Below are positions 15,177 through 36,734 of a DNA stretch of 36,971 nt, piece after piece. The notes below the pieces were generated by a model. That model ran no database searches. It was not told the DNA's origin and saw only the letters and a list, made by a program, of their open reading frames with translations. Origin of the DNA: Peptococcaceae bacterium (GTDB lineage Bacteria > Bacillota > DSM-12270 > Thermacetogeniales > Thermacetogeniaceae); assembly GCA_023249405.1 (NCBI GenBank), contig JAHFCR010000028.1, forward strand, positions 1-36,971, read 5' to 3'. The translations under genes and the position numbers were made by a program. Each line of letters opens with the position of its first letter. Within the stretch, counting starts at the first letter, position 1.

Positions 15177-16817
15177 ATGAGTCCCGACAAGATCAGAAAG
15201 CTGGAAGTATCCGAGGATATCAATTGGCCGGTGGTGATCATCATCGTCATCGGGACGTTCATGGCGATCCTGGACAGCAGCATCGTCAACGTCGCCCTGC
15301 CCAAGATGATGGCGGTATTCGGCGCCAACACCGATAAGATCGAATGGGTCCTCACCGCCTACATGCTGACCCTGGGGGTGGTCATGCCCCTGTCCGGCTA
15401 CCTGGGGGATACCTTCGGCTACAAGCGTTGCTATTTTGCCGCCCTCACCCTGTTCGTGTTCGGCTCCGCCCTGTGTGGCTTGGCCTGGAGCGTCAACAGC
15501 ATGATCGTCGCCCGGGTGATTCAGGCTTGCGGCGGCGGGATCCTGCAGCCGCTGGGGATGGCCCTCATCTACAAGGCCTGCCCCCGGAACAAGATCGGCA
15601 TGGTGCTGGGGGTCTGGGGGATCGCCACCGGCGCCGCCCCGGCCATCGGCCCCACCCTGGGCGGGTACCTGGTGCAGTACGTCAACTGGCGGATGATCTT
15701 CTACATCAACCTTCCGGTGGGCATCATCAACATGTTCCTGGTGCTGAACTACCTCCACGAGACGGATCTGACCAAGGGAAAGCGCCTCGATCTGGGCGGG
15801 ATCATCCTGTCCAGCGTCGGATTTTTCTGCCTGCTGCTGGCGCTCAGCGACGGCGTCACCGACGGCTGGACCTCTCCCTACATCGTCTCGCTGCTGCTTA
15901 TAGCTTTTATCAGCCTGGCCATCTTCATCGTCAACGAATTGCGTAATCCTGAACCGATCCTCGACCTGCGCCTGTTCAAGAACTTCATCTTCACTCTGGC
16001 CGTCATCCTCGGTTCGATCCTGTCTGTCTCCCTGTTCGGCGCCATCTTCCTGATGCCGATCATGATCCAGAACGTGCTCGGACAGACGGCCATGAAATCC
16101 GGCCTGATCCTGTTCCCGGCCGCCCTCGTCTCCATGGTGGTGATGCCGATCAGCGGACGGCTGTTCGACCGCTTCGGCGCCAGGGGGATAGTCATCATAG
16201 GACTGGCCCTGCTCACCTGGACGACCTATAAGATGGGATCCTTCAACGATCTGACCCCCTTCGCGGCGATGACCATGTGGCTGGGCATCCGCAGCATCGG
16301 GATGGGGCTGACCCTGATGCCGACGATGACCGCCGGCATGAACACCGTGCCGCCGCACCTGATCGGCAGGGCCTCGGCCATCAACAACGTCATTCGCCAG
16401 GTCTTCGCCGCCTTCGGGATCGCCATGTTCAACACGATCATGCAGAACCGCCAGATGTTTCACTTCGCCAACCTCGCCCGGTCGGTGAACATGGACAGCA
16501 ACATGGCCTTAGCCCTGCAGAGGCAGCTGCAGGGCCTGGTCGCTCATATCGGAATCAAGGTGTTCTCCATCACCATGCCTACCGGAACGATTCCCCCTGC
16601 GGCCACGCCACAGATGCTGGGCCTCTACATCATCGGCCTCAAAATAGGCGAGCTGTCCATGATCCAGGCAATCGACGACTGCTACATCGTGGCTGCCGCC
16701 CTGTGCTTTTTCGGCCTGCTGCTGTCTCCCTTTTTGAGGGACCGGAAGAGGGCCGCCATACAGCATGAGGAACCGGCTGCCAGATCAGAAACAAAACCCC
16801 TCGCTGCCGAGGGGTAG
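15177..16817 (+). CDS. DHA2 family (EmrB/QacA-type) MFS drug transporter
   Basis: 546-residue proton-driven multidrug exporter with about 14 hydrophobic helices. Signatures are LDSSIVNVALPKM in helix 1, the WVLTAYMLTLGVVMPLSGYL segment and the following motif A GDTFGYKRCY, and motif C-like GIATGAAPAIGPTLGGYL. The C-terminal tail is charged and cytoplasmic. With the HlyD-type gene upstream it forms an EmrAB-like pair controlled by the TetR gene at the head of the operon. A CCCCTCG/CGAGGGG hairpin overlaps the stop codon, but no T tract follows on the + strand. Confidence 0.93.
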   Translation: MSPDKIRKLEVSEDINWPVVIIIVIGTFMAILDSSIVNVALPKMMAVFGANTDKIEWVLTAYMLTLGVVMPLSGYLGDTFGYKRCYFAALTLFVFGSALCGLAWSVNSMIVARVIQACGGGILQPLGMALIYKACPRNKIGMVLGVWGIATGAAPAIGPTLGGYLVQYVNWRMIFYINLPVGIINMFLVLNYLHETDLTKGKRLDLGGIILSSVGFFCLLLALSDGVTDGWTSPYIVSLLLIAFISLAIFIVNELRNPEPILDLRLFKNFIFTLAVILGSILSVSLFGAIFLMPIMIQNVLGQTAMKSGLILFPAALVSMVVMPISGRLFDRFGARGIVIIGLALLTWTTYKMGSFNDLTPFAAMTMWLGIRSIGMGLTLMPTMTAGMNTVPPHLIGRASAINNVIRQVFAAFGIAMFNTIMQNRQMFHFANLARSVNMDSNMALALQRQLQGLVAHIGIKVFSITMPTGTIPPAATPQMLGLYIIGLKIGELSMIQAIDDCYIVAAALCFFGLLLSPFLRDRKRAAIQHEEPAARSETKPLAAEG

Positions 16818-16840
16818 AATGCCAATAAAAAAACAATGTT

Positions 16841-16910
16841 TGGTGCCGGGAGTGGGACTTTGAACCACACGATCCGTGAAGATCCCGGAATTTTAAGGCT
16901 CATGACGACC
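16841..16910 (-). pseudogene. tRNA-Leu(UAA) 3'-half remnant
   Basis: On the - strand it ends in CACTCCCGGCACCA, a typical tRNA-Leu acceptor 3' strand with discriminator A and CCA. Going upstream it shows a damaged T arm (GTGTGG-TTCAAAG-TCCCAC), a variable-arm-like GATC-TTCACG-GATC and an anticodon-loop-like CTTAAAA (UAA). Nothing upstream matches the D arm or the 5' acceptor strand (GCCGGGA expected). It is therefore a 3' fragment, not a working tRNA. Such 3' halves are common scars of integrase-mediated insertion. Confidence 0.6.
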
Positions 16911-17043
16911 GTTATCGCTAGTTTCATATAATTATCGGAAGTTGGTTTGCAAACTTTTTGCAACCCTAATTTTTATATACGGCCCACAAGGTGCGTCGCG
17001 TATGGTAAGTCGCCACAAATAACCCTCGGTACCGCCATTTCCC

Positions 17044-17055
17044 TTACACGTGTAA
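17044..17055. promoter_or_regulatory. 12-bp palindrome, candidate HicB operator
   Basis: TTACACGTGTAA is a perfect 12-bp palindrome 18 bases upstream of the -35 box of hicA. HicB-type antitoxins often bind palindromes in their own promoters; the assignment here is inference from position. Confidence 0.35.
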
Positions 17056-17073
17056 ATATATTTGTGCTCACGA

Positions 17074-17102
17074 TTGACACATATTTTTACCAGTGTTATG
17101 CT
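17074..17102 (+). promoter_or_regulatory. Promoter of hicAB
   Basis: Perfect TTGACA (17074-17079), 17-base spacer, TATGCT (17097-17102). The start lies about 33 bases upstream of the hicA GTG. Confidence 0.7.
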
Positions 17103-17142
17103 TTAAAGTATAAAAAGTTAGGAGCGCAAGGAAGGTGAAGCC

Positions 17143-17334
17143 GTGAAAGGTTATTCATCCAGGGAAGTACTCAAAGTACTGCATGAAGATGGATGGATGA
17201 TCAAAGGGCAAGAAGGTTCCCACGTTCAGTTGAAGCACCCAACAAAATCAGGTAAAGTGACAGTGAAGCACCCTGTCAAAGATTTAGATAAAAAAACAGT
17301 GGAAACGATCCTTAAGCAGGCAGGGTTAAAGTAA
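17143..17334 (+). CDS. hicA: HicA mRNA interferase toxin
   Basis: 63 residues with a dsRBD-like HicA fold. It begins MKGYSSREVLKVLHEDGW and has the catalytic His in GSHVQLKHP, then the usual GKVTVKHPVKDLDKKTVETI and a C-terminal KQAGL. HicA cleaves mRNA and is neutralised by HicB. Start is GTG 17143 with GAAGGTGA upstream. Composition is more AT-rich than the neighbours, consistent with acquisition. It lies 79 bases upstream of hicB. Confidence 0.92.
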   Translation: MKGYSSREVLKVLHEDGWMIKGQEGSHVQLKHPTKSGKVTVKHPVKDLDKKTVETILKQAGLK

Positions 17335-17413
17335 CAGCCCTGCCATGTCCAAAGGTTAAGAAATAAAAATAAAATAAAGTTAAAGAATAAATTAATTGGA
17401 GGATTAAAAAAAC

Positions 17414-17824
17414 ATGGATAAATATATTTTTCCTGCCGTATTCGACCCATCCGAAAAAGGTGGTTACTGCATTACTTTTCCGGACCTGCCTGGAATCGCT
17501 ACAGAGGGCGACTCTATTACAGATGCCTATACTATGGCCAAAGAAGCTTTAGAACTTCATCTCTGGGGAATGGAGGACGACAATGACCCTATACCCACTC
17601 CTACTTTACCCAACATAATTGACGTTCCCACCGGAGGGTTCGTTAGTCTTATAGAGGCATTAATGCCACCTATTCGTGACAAAATGGTAAATAAGGCTAT
17701 AAATAAAACCTTGACTTTGCCTAAATGGCTCAACGATCTTGGAGAAAGTCGTAAGGTTAATTTTTCGCATATACTTCAGAACGCACTTAAAAGCTACTTA
17801 GGCGTTCATGATTACCGTCGTTAA
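17414..17824 (+). CDS. hicB: HicB antitoxin
   Basis: 136 residues. The N-terminal HicB domain reads YIFPAVFDPSEKGGYCITFPDLPGIATEGDSITDAYTMAKEALELHLWGM, the typical antitoxin fold resembling a degraded RNase H. The C-terminal part (KTLTLPKWLNDLGESRKVNFSHILQNALK) looks like a ribbon-helix-helix-type DNA-binding tail. It neutralises HicA and probably represses the operon. ATG 17414 is preceded by GGAGG. The strong terminator just downstream closes the cassette. Confidence 0.92.
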   Translation: MDKYIFPAVFDPSEKGGYCITFPDLPGIATEGDSITDAYTMAKEALELHLWGMEDDNDPIPTPTLPNIIDVPTGGFVSLIEALMPPIRDKMVNKAINKTLTLPKWLNDLGESRKVNFSHILQNALKSYLGVHDYRR

Positions 17825-17844
17825 AAGTCTAAAAGCTCTTGAAT

Positions 17845-17890
17845 AAACGAGAAACCCCTGGTGGTTTGATTGTCGGGGGTTTCTCGTTTT
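17845..17890 (+). terminator. Intrinsic terminator after hicB
   Basis: Long stem AAACGAGAAACCCC/GGGGGTTTCTCGTTT with a 13-16 base loop, ending in TTTT. Good Rho-independent form on the + strand and possibly bidirectional because of the symmetric A and T ends. Confidence 0.85.
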
Positions 17891-18000
17891 GAATTCTTCT
17901 AAATCTTAGATATTGCAATTTACTAAGGTTTTCTCAGCAAAATCTTTTAATAACACATGGAAAACACTTTGCGGCAATAGCTTCAAAGTGGCAATTTATT

Positions 18001-18035
18001 TGGTGTCTAGAGTGGGACTTGAACCCACAGCACGT
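18001..18035 (-). pseudogene. Second tRNA 3'-end remnant (T arm to CCA)
   Basis: On the - strand: GTGGG-TTCAAGT-CCCAC (an intact T arm), then TCTAGAC, A, CCA. The 20 bases TGGTGTCTAGAGTGGGACTT match 17 of 20 in the remnant at 16841-16860, in the same orientation. No tRNA body lies upstream; the sequence runs into the 3' end of the threonine aldolase gene 17 bases away. It forms the right-hand boundary of the hicAB islet. Confidence 0.6.
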
Positions 18036-18051
18036 ATATTCACAAAAAATG

Positions 18052-19101
18052 TTATGCTGCCATAACCACTCTGATCGCCTGCAGGGCGGTTTCTATATCC
18101 TCAGATGAAACCATACGGTTGGCCACCATCCTGATCCGATGCGGACCGGGGCTGCCTGCAAGTACGCCCTTGGCATTCAAGCGCGCCAGGAATTCTTCTT
18201 CGGTCAGGGTGGGCGCCAGTTCATAGCTGACGATATTCGTCTGCACCCGGGCCAGGTCTATTTTGATACCAGGGATCTCTGCCAGGCCAACCGCCAGTCG
18301 TCTGGCGTTGGCATGGTCCTCTGCCAGCCGGTCAACCATCTTCTCCAGGGCTACGATCCCGGCGGCGGCCAGCACTCCGGCCTGGCGCATACCGCCCCCC
18401 ACCACTTTCCGGGCTTTCCGGGCACGCTGCACAAACTCCCTGCCGCCAGCCAGCAGGGAACCCACCGGGGCGCTCAAACCCTTGGACAGGCAGAAGGAGA
18501 CGGAGTCGGCATAGCGGGCGAAATCAGCCGCCGGCCGTCCGGCAGCCACGGCGGCATTGAAGATGCGGGCGCCGTCCAGATGCACCGCCAGATGCAATTC
18601 CCGGGCCAGTTCGTAGATCTCCTGCATCTGTTCAACATTAGTGATAGTGCCGCCGCCGCGGTTGTGGGTATTCTCCAGACAGAAGAGGCGCGTCTCCGGA
18701 AAGTGCAGGTTGGGCGTCCGCAAGACCGCCTTAAAGGCCTCGGCCGTGAACACCCCATCCCGGTCGTCGACCAGCCGGGGCAATACCCCGGCCACCCGGG
18801 CCAGACCGCCGACCTCATAGTAGTACACATGGGCCTCGGCGCCGACCAGGATCTCTTCCCCCGGCCTGGTGTGCGCCAGCAGGGCCACCAGATTGCTCAT
18901 GGTGCCGCTGGGTACAAACAGGGCGGCCTCCTTGCCCATCTTCTGGGCCCCCAGCGCCTCCAGGCGGTTGACCGTAGGGTCCTCGCCGTATACATCATCG
19001 CCGACAACTGCTTCAGCCATCACCCGCCGCATCTCGTCTGTCGGCCAGGTGACAGTATCACTGCGCAGATCGATCACGTGCTTCCCCACCACTGCTTTCA
19101 T
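18052..19101 (-). CDS. ltaE: Low-specificity L-threonine aldolase
   Basis: 349-residue PLP enzyme of the beta-eliminating lyase family that splits L-threonine or L-allo-threonine into glycine and acetaldehyde. N-terminal [20 protein letters not shown] and [16 protein letters not shown] are family hallmarks. The PLP lysine lies in [20 protein letters not shown], and [10 protein letters not shown] is conserved. Length is normal. It is the last gene of a leftward run after the YchF-like gene, and its stop lies 17 bases from a tRNA 3'-end remnant. Confidence 0.93.
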
Positions 19102-33744: not shown

Positions 33745-34674
33745 TCAGTCCCCGTCAGGCGGCAGTTCCTGTTTCAACTCCAGCACCGGGGCAAACAGGT
33801 CGCCCAGCGCCTGCCAGCGCCGTACCACCTGATCCGCTTCGAAGAACAGCAGTTGGGAGTCCCTGCCGGCGACGGCGGCCTCCACCTCCGGCCACTGCAC
33901 CGGTGTGGACGCGGTGGGACGCTCCCTGGCCCGCAGGGAGTAGACGCAGACCGTGGTCTTGTGATGGTCGTTCTGGCTCCAATCGACCAGGACCTTGCCC
34001 TGGCGCAGGCTCTTGGTCATCTTGGAGACCACCAGGTCCGGGTGCTGTTCCTCCAGCAGGCGGGCCTGCGCATGGGCGAAGCTCTTGGTTTGATCGTAAG
34101 CAACCGCTGTGTTCAGGGGCACGTAGACCTGCAGCCCCTTGGACCCGGATGTTTTGGGGAAACTTTGCAGGCCCTGGCCGGCAAATGCCTGGCGCAGCCA
34201 CAGGGCCACCTGGGCGCACTCGAGGATGGAGGCCGGCGGCCCTGGGTCCAGGTCAAAGACCATCATTGAGGGTGTGGCGGGATCCTCTCCCAGCGAGAGC
34301 GAGGTGTGCAGCTCGATGGCCGCGGTATTCACCACCCAGACCAGCGATGGCAAATCGTTGACCAGGCAGAAGTTGACGTTCCGCTCGTTGGACCCGCTGT
34401 ACACCGGAGCGGTGTCCAGCCAGGACGGGCGATATTCCGGGCACTCCTTCTGATAAAAATAGGCGCCGTCCACGCCGCCGGGATAGCGCTTCAGGGTGAC
34501 GGGGCGCCCTGCCAGGTGCGGCAGGAGAGCCGGAGCGATCTGGACGTAGTAGTCGATCACCTGCGCCTTGGTAAAGCCGCTGGCCGGGTAATAGACCTTG
34601 TTCAGATTGGAGAGTTGCAACTGCTTACCGTCAACGTCGATCGCAGTCTTGGTCGTGGATGCTTTACCGGGCAC
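33745..34674 (-). CDS. ligD: LigD-type NHEJ polymerase/primase
   Basis: 309 residues of the LigD polymerase (AEP primase) domain alone. Key motifs are LSNLNKVYYPASGFTKAQVI, MMVFDLDPG with the two metal-binding Asp, SGSKGLQVYVPL and VDWSQN with the third Asp. It fills gaps and adds ribonucleotides during bacterial end joining. The ligase and nuclease parts of a full LigD are not fused; the ligase is a separate gene upstream. GTG 34674 overlaps the ku stop by 11 bases. Confidence 0.92.
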   Translation of the reverse strand: MPGKASTTKTAIDVDGKQLQLSNLNKVYYPASGFTKAQVIDYYVQIAPALLPHLAGRPVTLKRYPGGVDGAYFYQKECPEYRPSWLDTAPVYSGSNERNVNFCLVNDLPSLVWVVNTAAIELHTSLSLGEDPATPSMMVFDLDPGPPASILECAQVALWLRQAFAGQGLQSFPKTSGSKGLQVYVPLNTAVAYDQTKSFAHAQARLLEEQHPDLVVSKMTKSLRQGKVLVDWSQNDHHKTTVCVYSLRARERPTASTPVQWPEVEAAVAGRDSQLLFFEADQVVRRWQALGDLFAPVLELKQELPPDGD

Positions 34675-35485
34675 CGGTTCGCTTCGCCCCCTTCCTGGCC
34701 GGGGCCTTCTTGTTGACAGAGGCCAGGCTGGCTTCCAGCGCCGCCATCAGATCGATCACCTTGCCGGATTCCTCGGCCGGCGGCTGAATCACCACTGTCT
34801 CCCCCTCGGCCTTGCGGTTGATCATATCCATTACCCGCTCCCGGAAGTCGTCATGATACTTTCCGGGGTCGAACTCCACCGCAAGAGTGGTGATCAGCCG
34901 CTCTGCCATCTCCAGTTCCCGCGGCGCCGGGCTGGCATCCGCCGGCGGCAGGTCTTCCAGCTGCTCCTGAGGCACCACCTCATCGGCGAAGTACATCGTA
35001 GACAGGCCCAAGGCATTCCCGACCGGACGGATCACCGACAGGTGCTGCTTGTTGTGCAGCACAAACCTGGCGACAGCCACCTTGCCGGTCTTGCGCATGG
35101 CCAATAGCAGCAAGGAGTAAGCCCTGGCCGCGCCCTTATCCGGTACCAGGTAGTAGGATTTTTCAAAGTAGACCGGGTCGATCTTAGAGATATCGACAAA
35201 GTCATCGATCTCTATCTTGCGGGTATTCTCCGGGAACAGGGCATCCATCTCTTCATCGGCGATTACCACATGGCGCCCCGGGGAGACCTCGTAACCCCGA
35301 ACGATCTCCTCGGCGGGCACTTCGGCCCCGTCGGAGGCGCAGACATTCTTCAGGCGGATGCGGCAACCGTCAGATTTGCGCAATTGGTGAAAGCGAATCG
35401 CCTTTACTTTGACCGAGTTGTACAGCTTGACTGGAACATTGACCAGACCCAGGCTGATGGTACCGCTCCAGATATGTCTTGGCAT
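34664..35485 (-). CDS. ku: Ku end-binding protein
   Basis: 273-residue bacterial Ku homodimer subunit that threads onto DNA double-strand ends and recruits LigD. It begins MPRHIWSGTISLGLVNVPVK, continues with the core EIDDFVDISKIDPVYFEKSYYLVPD and LSTMYFADEV, and ends in a Lys/Arg-rich tail (VNKKAPARKGAKRTGAR). Length is normal. It sits between the ligase gene (19 bases upstream) and the polymerase gene (overlapping). Spore formers often use Ku/LigD for repair on outgrowth, which would fit but is not shown here. Confidence 0.95.
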   Translation of the reverse strand: MPRHIWSGTISLGLVNVPVKLYNSVKVKAIRFHQLRKSDGCRIRLKNVCASDGAEVPAEEIVRGYEVSPGRHVVIADEEMDALFPENTRKIEIDDFVDISKIDPVYFEKSYYLVPDKGAARAYSLLLLAMRKTGKVAVARFVLHNKQHLSVIRPVGNALGLSTMYFADEVVPQEQLEDLPPADASPAPRELEMAERLITTLAVEFDPGKYHDDFRERVMDMINRKAEGETVVIQPPAEESGKVIDLMAALEASLASVNKKAPARKGAKRTGAR

Positions 35486-35504
35486 GCCGGATCAACCTCT
35501 CGAT

Positions 35505-36590
35505 CTATGTTTCCCGGACAACATCCCGGGGACTCTTATCCTGTCGCAGTCCCTTGAAGGACGGATGGCGCAGGGTATGATTGGGCGTCCACTCGGTAAA
35601 CTCCACCTCGCAGACCAGCAACGGCTCCACGAATACCGCGCCCGCCCGGGGGCCGCCGGATGTCCGGACAACGGACGCAGAGTATCCGGATGCCCGCTGA
35701 TCGGCATGGTGCGGCGCCTGACTGCGTATCCATGCCTCCGAATCCTGGCGGAAAGGGCTCGTGACTCGGCATAGCGGCTGTAGCGCTTTCTGCAGCTTAT
35801 CCAGCATCAGATCGGAGAAGCCGGTGCCTACCTTACCGGCAAAAATCAGTTGTTGTTCCAATCCGCGGGCTGCAGCCTGATCCGGCGCCAGGTCATAATA
35901 GCCTACCATCAACGCCCCGATCCTCCCGGACCGGGCACCGCGCCCTGGAAGCCAGCCGCCGATCACCAGTTCCTGACGCAGCTGATTCTTGATCTTCAGC
36001 CAACATCCGGTGCGCCTGCCTGGCTGATAGGGGCTGTCCAGCAGCTTGGCCATCACCCCCTCCATGCCCAATTGCTGGCTGATCCCCTGCACAGCAGGGC
36101 CGTTGCCGGCTGTGCAGCCGGGAGTCTGCCAGGTCCTGCCCGCCAGCCCCAGATCCTGCAAGAGATGGCGGCGCCTGGCATAGGGCTGGGAGATCATAGA
36201 AATACCATTCCGGTAGAGCAGATCGAATATCATATAGGTGACCGGAGTGGTGGCCATCAGCTGACTGACCGCCCGATCCGAAGCCACACCCATCCGGCTC
36301 TGGAGGCTGGCAAAGGATGGTCTGCCATTATCCCCCAGAGCGACGATCTCCCCGTCCAGGATCAGTTGGCAAGAACCGAGTTCCTCCGCCAGAGACAGCA
36401 CCTCCGGGTATTGCCGGGTAATATCCAGCAGGTTGCGGCTGGATAGGCAGGCCCGTCCACGGTCGAGGTAGAGAATGGCCCTGATGCCGTCCCATTTCAT
36501 CTCAAAACCGTAGTCGCCGTCGTTGACCGGCATCGAACCAGGCTTGGCCAACATGGGTTGTATCTGCCGCGGCATCAGTGATTCCGCCAT
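35505..36590 (-). CDS. ATP-dependent DNA ligase (LigD ligase domain, stand-alone)
   Basis: About 361 residues. Ligase motif I is FEMKWDGIRA with the adenylated Lys, then SSRNLLDIT, ILDGEIVAL (motif III) and MIFDLLYRNG; EGVMAKLLDSPYQPGRRTGCWLKIKN covers motifs IV and V. The OB-fold follows (LVIGGWLPGRGARSGRIGALMVGYYD) and ends in EVEFTEWTPNHTLRHPSFKG. An extra segment of about 30 residues (HHADQRASGYSASVVRTSG) separates SPF from the VEPLLVCEVEF strand, longer than usual. ATG 36590 has GGAG 9 bases upstream; the frame is open to 36713 but crosses the upstream terminator region. First gene of the NHEJ operon. Confidence 0.9.
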   Translation of the reverse strand: MAESLMPRQIQPMLAKPGSMPVNDGDYGFEMKWDGIRAILYLDRGRACLSSRNLLDITRQYPEVLSLAEELGSCQLILDGEIVALGDNGRPSFASLQSRMGVASDRAVSQLMATTPVTYMIFDLLYRNGISMISQPYARRRHLLQDLGLAGRTWQTPGCTAGNGPAVQGISQQLGMEGVMAKLLDSPYQPGRRTGCWLKIKNQLRQELVIGGWLPGRGARSGRIGALMVGYYDLAPDQAAARGLEQQLIFAGKVGTGFSDLMLDKLQKALQPLCRVTSPFRQDSEAWIRSQAPHHADQRASGYSASVVRTSGGPRAGAVFVEPLLVCEVEFTEWTPNHTLRHPSFKGLRQDKSPRDVVRET

Positions 36591-36677
36591 TCTCGACCAC
36601 TCCGGAATTATTCTCTGCAGGCTTAGTATGGCGACGGATGGCAGCATCTTATACTGCCCAATTTCCGGTCCCCACAA

Positions 36678-36703
36678 TAAGAAAACCCCGGATTCCCGGG
36701 GTT
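36678..36703 (-). terminator. Intrinsic terminator of the right-edge gene
   Basis: On the - strand: AACCCCGG/CCGGGGTT stem (36684-36703) with a 4-base loop, followed by TTTTCTTATT. It lies 31 bases after the stop of the partial gene at the right edge and separates it from the NHEJ operon. Confidence 0.8.
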
Positions 36704-36734
36704 GGCAACACAAATCCGACCAGATTCAACGGCG

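Follow-up and report, generated by a model that had tools for sequence, protein, structure and literature searches.

An AT-rich hicAB islet bordered by two degenerate tRNA-Leu 3' ends, a candidate remnant of a tRNA-targeted element

The window analysed here, 36,971 nucleotides in length, is the entire contig C36 of a 3.57 Mb Bacillota draft genome; its ltaE protein is 80-81% identical to those of the nearest named relatives, the Peptococcaceae MAGs bog_1190 and palsa_1188. Between an efflux permease gene and the ltaE-like gene lies an AT-rich segment of 1.24 kb that carries a hicAB operon and, near each of its limits, a degenerate tRNA 3' end, referred to below as the left and right scars. The features are as follows.

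15177-16817, plus strand: left neighbour, EmrB/DHA2-type MFS efflux permease (TIGR00711, E 1.6e-129)
16816-18055, no strand: AT-rich segment, bounded by maximum-likelihood composition change points picked without reference to the scars
16841-16897, minus strand: left scar, degenerate tRNA-Leu(UAA) 3' half from the anticodon loop to CCA (BLAST)
17074-17102, plus strand: promoter-like sequence, TTGACA-17-TATGCT, TG-extended (agrees with the consensus at 10 of 12 bases; a consensus match only)
17143-17334, plus strand: hicA toxin, GTG start, 63 aa (PF07927, E 3.8e-20; solved HicA relatives 6g26 and 4c26)
17414-17824, plus strand: hicB antitoxin, 136 aa (PF15919, E 2.4e-12; solved HicB relatives 9svk and 5yrz)
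17845-17889, no strand: likely hicAB terminator, a perfect 14-bp inverted repeat with a 17-nt spacer and a T tail
18001-18029, minus strand: right scar, tRNA-Leu-like 3' end comprising T arm, acceptor 3' strand and CCA (BLAST)
18052-19101, minus strand: right neighbour, ltaE-like PLP-dependent aldolase (NF041359, E 2.5e-138; PF01212)

The hicAB operon (17143-17824) is intact, with both products matching their families over the full length, and because PF07927 and PF15919 are encoded by adjacent, like-oriented genes, hicA and hicB are predicted from sequence to be the toxin and antitoxin of a HicAB type II module. In gene order, size, family matches and solved relatives the islet is like other such modules, and HicB homologues in other Bacillota are 63-73% identical; the genes are thus ordinary, and only the border sequences are unusual. 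The initial annotation had described a hicAB islet in which an AT-rich segment of about 1.2 kb holds only hicAB, its promoter and its terminator and retains no integrase, and this description is confirmed. The genes are intact and accompanied by the promoter-like site and the inverted repeat, the only ORFs of the segment are hicA and hicB, genes for integration or transfer are absent from it, and neither a recombinase or integrase nor a fragment of one was seen among the window ORFs scanned. The change points at 16816 and 18055 each fall within 26 bases of a scar, and GC content is 35-42% inside the segment (scars left out) versus 60-63% in the two flanking genes.

The two borders resemble each other in sequence. 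Positions 16841-16860 and 18001-18020 are identical at 17 of 20 bases at TGGTG...GTGGGACTT, exactly the count first reported, and belong to a 31-nt direct repeat (16839-16869 and 17999-18029) that is 81% identical in ungapped comparison, with two T-arm indels and three acceptor differences. The T arms of the scars agree except for one deletion and one insertion in the left scar, and the acceptor ends are unequal, reading TCCCGGC on the left and TCTAGAC on the right, with three of seven positions differing. When the 37 kb window was searched with a library of 115 tRNAs, the scars were the only significant matches, at 62.6 bits (left) and 49.1 bits (right), and they lie in the same orientation, one at each compositional border, as had also been noted initially.

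It could be argued that this tRNA similarity reflects chance or some other functional feature, such as a terminator, since ARAGORN reports no tRNA at either scar and none intact at either end, and the Rfam tRNA covariance model reports none in the region up to an E-value of 10; in a genome-wide scan with the tRNA model, the right scar scores 14.6 bits (E 7). The scars are missed by these programs because they are fragments, which the model penalises. The covariance-model search, for which the initial annotation had named a lack of tRNA similarity as a refutation, calls no tRNA, and it is the BLAST comparison with true tRNAs that upholds the similarity. For both scars chance is refuted by their scores, which lie well above the maximum of 35.6 bits obtained in 200 dinucleotide shuffles, and the reversed right-scar pattern is absent from all 398 genomes. 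Together with the compensatory changes in the left scar described below, these results leave an origin by chance or as another feature hardly credible.

In the case of the left scar, the sequence is 86% identical (E 4e-11) to the genome's own intact tRNA-Leu(UAA) gene over nt 33-89 of the latter, and so reaches the anticodon loop as originally claimed. Six of the seven substitutions that separate it from the resident gene form three Watson-Crick compensatory stem pairs, one in the variable stem (C48:G57 to T:A) and two in the T stem (C63:G77 to T:A and A65:T75 to G:C). Three compensatory pairs are expected from seven randomly placed changes at a frequency of about 5e-7 (about five per ten million), and they therefore point to a donor other than the resident gene, namely a tRNA-Leu(UAA) from another lineage that was once functional. 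Judged by this covariation, the left scar is foreign rather than a resident copy that decayed in place, whereas the deletion and insertion in its T arm are later decay. An intact donor was found neither in 398 relatives, allowing up to three mismatches over the 41-nt 3' part (with the T arm as GTGGG), nor in viral contigs, and phage and plasmid records gave partial or weak matches only, the best of the phage ones being annotated tRNA-Leu genes.

The right scar is shorter, and the tRNA-Leu(UAA) named in the initial annotation, which is correct for the left one, is not its source. Its 29 nucleotides are closest to tRNA-Leu(GAG), with 28 of 29 identical to nt 55-83 of that tRNA in two distant Bacillota of another family (E 8e-7). 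With TCTAGAC as acceptor end and GTGGG as T stem, it departs in both parts from the Leu(GAG) of two genomes of the same genus (G001 and G002) and from all tRNA-Leu identified in its own genome, so that it, too, is probably foreign. Only 22 bp separate it from the ltaE stop codon, which leaves no room for a full-length tRNA gene. An insertion that destroyed the host's own tRNA-Leu(GAG) was considered and rejected, since the Leu(GAG) of G001 and G002 has another acceptor and T stem; the absence of tRNA-Leu(GAG) from the draft genome may be an assembly gap.

In this genome, the tRNA-Leu(UAA) gene serves as a hotspot for integration. The intact copy, which the initial annotation had suggested looking for, lies on contig C25 (L004 1469-1557) and is followed by a tyrosine integrase (Phage_integrase) gene (L008 6153-7328). 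Two further 3' halves, both identical to the intact gene, are found on C143 (L002 1501-1561) and C162 (L003 1501-1557). The former is flanked by an amidase-containing stretch on one side and a second tyrosine integrase gene (L006 5698-6846) on the other, an arrangement that would fit a tandem prophage junction or a circular attP. Both copies have their 5' limit at the 3' strand of the D-side half, between 0 and 5 nt ahead of the anticodon loop, and that of the left scar is no more than 5 nt away.

With modest confidence, we favour the explanation that the islet is a decayed, horizontally acquired element of the tRNA-targeting, tyrosine-integrase type, which has kept tRNA-Leu 3' fragments at its ends and of which only the intact, self-promoted hicAB operon is left. 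This explanation is favoured by the fact that the sole tRNA-like sequences of the 37 kb window, two in number, lie in the same orientation and at both compositional borders; by the start of the left scar near those of the C143 and C162 copies, the C143 copy and the C25 gene being beside Phage_integrase genes; and by the foreign left scar, the dissimilarity of the right scar to the Leu(GAG) of the genus, and the low GC content. The attL/attR footprint proposed at the outset is thereby borne out in part, since real tRNA 3' ends do lie on the compositional borders, and tRNA-Leu(UAA) is used as a site in the same genome with nearly the same extent of 3' half. The weaker part is the pairing of the ends, for the scars do not appear to be a matched pair from one tRNA and no intact tRNA is present at either end. 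The latter point weakens the explanation, because an intact or reconstituted tRNA is the normal outcome when an element integrates into a tRNA gene (PMC4383910). Moreover, the differences between the scars in acceptor, T-arm indels and closest anticodons (UAA-like on the left and GAG-like on the right) may make a single recombination event doubtful.

The same differences lend themselves to another account, in which a foreign piece of DNA with two unrelated parts of a tRNA-Leu cluster flanking hicAB, derived for example from an array in a phage or another of the Bacillota, entered by homologous or illegitimate recombination, and no site-specific recombination took place here. Such an origin would explain why the scars match different tRNAs with different acceptor ends and why both appear foreign, and adjacent tRNA-Leu pairs do exist; for instance, CAG and GAG genes lie 3 bp apart in two of the genomes compared (G048 and G089). 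Against this, both scars are 3' ends cut on the CCA side, pointing in the same direction and placed at both borders, an att-like arrangement seldom expected of random fragments, and the 5' limit of the left scar is nearly that of the att copies in the same genome. We regard this account as unlikely, though it deserves serious consideration.

Comparison with related genomes bears on both the site and its cargo. In G001 and G002, gene order is alike, but hicAB and the MFS gene are both missing, and an EmrA-like (MFP) gene converges on ltaE so that their 3' ends overlap (L089 3024-5214 and L090 1122-3261, respectively). The simplest reading of this junction is a deletion in these two genomes. The empty site that the initial annotation had suggested looking for is found only to the extent that hicAB is lacking; the site is not exact, and its use as proof of an empty site was rejected because the MFS gene is gone too, so that an insertion of hicAB only is not demonstrated. 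An exact empty site was found in none of the relatives compared. As a separate observation, the EmrB partner is missing at the G001 and G002 locus, and EmrAB-like pairs are present elsewhere in both genomes (L093 and L094).

HicB relatives are present in 87 of 299 genomes, and tRNA scars were found around none of the 32 other hicAB loci examined. The suggestion that hicAB might be a general minimal mobile cassette thus finds no sign in its favour, and the search for further tRNA-scar hicAB cassettes came back empty. In eight relatives, each inspected over about 6-10 kb, hicAB is solitary and its surroundings are ordinary chromosomal genes, including those for flagellins, glycosyl hydrolases, SpoVAD and transporters; 20 ORFs neighbouring hicAB in these relatives gave no match to integrase families, and DNA similarity between hicAB loci is confined to the genes. 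These features are what would be seen if a solitary hicAB cassette spread among intergenic sites and happened to land in an old tRNA scar, the tRNA sequences playing no causal part. We consider this improbable, since it leaves unexplained the tRNA 3' ends that lie in the same orientation at both AT-rich borders. In two relatives, hicB was observed tail-to-tail with an intact tRNA gene, that is tRNA-Arg at 32 bp in G136 (L278 7436-7941) and tRNA-Thr at 168 bp in G263 (L279 7154-7789). The polarity is as in the window and the fetched flanks hold no second tRNA fragment, and two cases are too few to count.

Phages provide a further link to the decayed tRNA-targeting element. Temperate Paenibacillus phages carry HicB relatives that are 53% identical, and in Paenibacillus phage Likha (L269 1665-4315) hicAB lies close beside a serine recombinase gene, both of which favour such an origin; HicB was not found in viral contigs. 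The origin is weakened by the failure to find an exact empty site or an integrase fragment, and by the hicAB loci of relatives, which are without tRNA scars.

If the islet did arise in this way, an incoming element with tRNA-Leu 3' sequences at its ends would have become fixed at the locus and then eroded, its integrase included, until the autonomous hicAB unit remained. A tyrosine integrase would have made the junction, and hicAB would have belonged to the cargo from the outset. Toxin-antitoxin pairs carried by integrated elements act as addiction modules (reviewed in PMC5704250), and this role would explain why hicAB outlasted the rest: the operon would have been kept since loss of a toxin-antitoxin pair costs the cell, through post-segregational killing or addiction. 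On the right side, a partial secondary site may have been used, the 5' part of a tRNA may have been deleted, or the scars may be unrelated fragments that were carried in. The scars have probably lost their competence for recombination by now. That the 1.2 kb of hicAB and its two tRNA-Leu att-like ends form a minimal non-autonomous mobile unit, movable in trans by the resident tRNA-Leu(UAA) integrases, is very unlikely.

Among described elements, the closest are cis-mobilizable elements (CIME), which are decayed ICE or IME that have lost their integration and transfer genes while keeping attL and attR (PMC5704250). Like a CIME, the islet is small and non-autonomous, is without integrase or transfer genes, has like-oriented tRNA-derived borders, and carries a toxin-antitoxin cargo of a kind common on ICE and IME. 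Unlike a CIME, its borders are unequal and decayed, neither side has an intact target gene, and its mobility by a resident integrase is a candidate property only; we therefore class it as a decayed islet with tRNA borders and a resemblance to CIME, and not as a proven member of that class. In the Islander islands found in tRNA genes, the layout is an intact tRNA, the element and a 3' fragment (PMC4383910). The left border of the islet is such a like-oriented fragment, distal in this layout, and as a 3' half beginning at the anticodon loop it falls into one of two classes given in that work; an intact proximal tRNA, an internal tyrosine integrase gene and a length of at least 2 kb, which Islander requires, are all lacking. 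The tmRNA (ssrA) islands of Dehalococcoides are likewise bounded by RNA-gene 3' repeats, with some lacking an integration module (PMC3146451), as the islet does, whereas their repeats are short, conserved and downstream of an intact ssrA, and a serine recombinase is used.

The islet is thus ordinary in kind, a known sort of genomic leftover and not a new kind of system, and on the favoured explanation it would be a clear case of a tRNA-targeted element eroding to its toxin-antitoxin pair. Compensatory stem changes in a scar provide a useful test of resident versus foreign tRNA origin. The filters now used in mapping tRNA islands discard islets that are shorter than 2 kb and have no integrase, and such remains may therefore be under-counted. 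Elsewhere in the window, about 17 kb from the islet, genes for Ku and an ATP-dependent DNA ligase, the bacterial non-homologous end joining pair, adjoin at positions 34664-36713.
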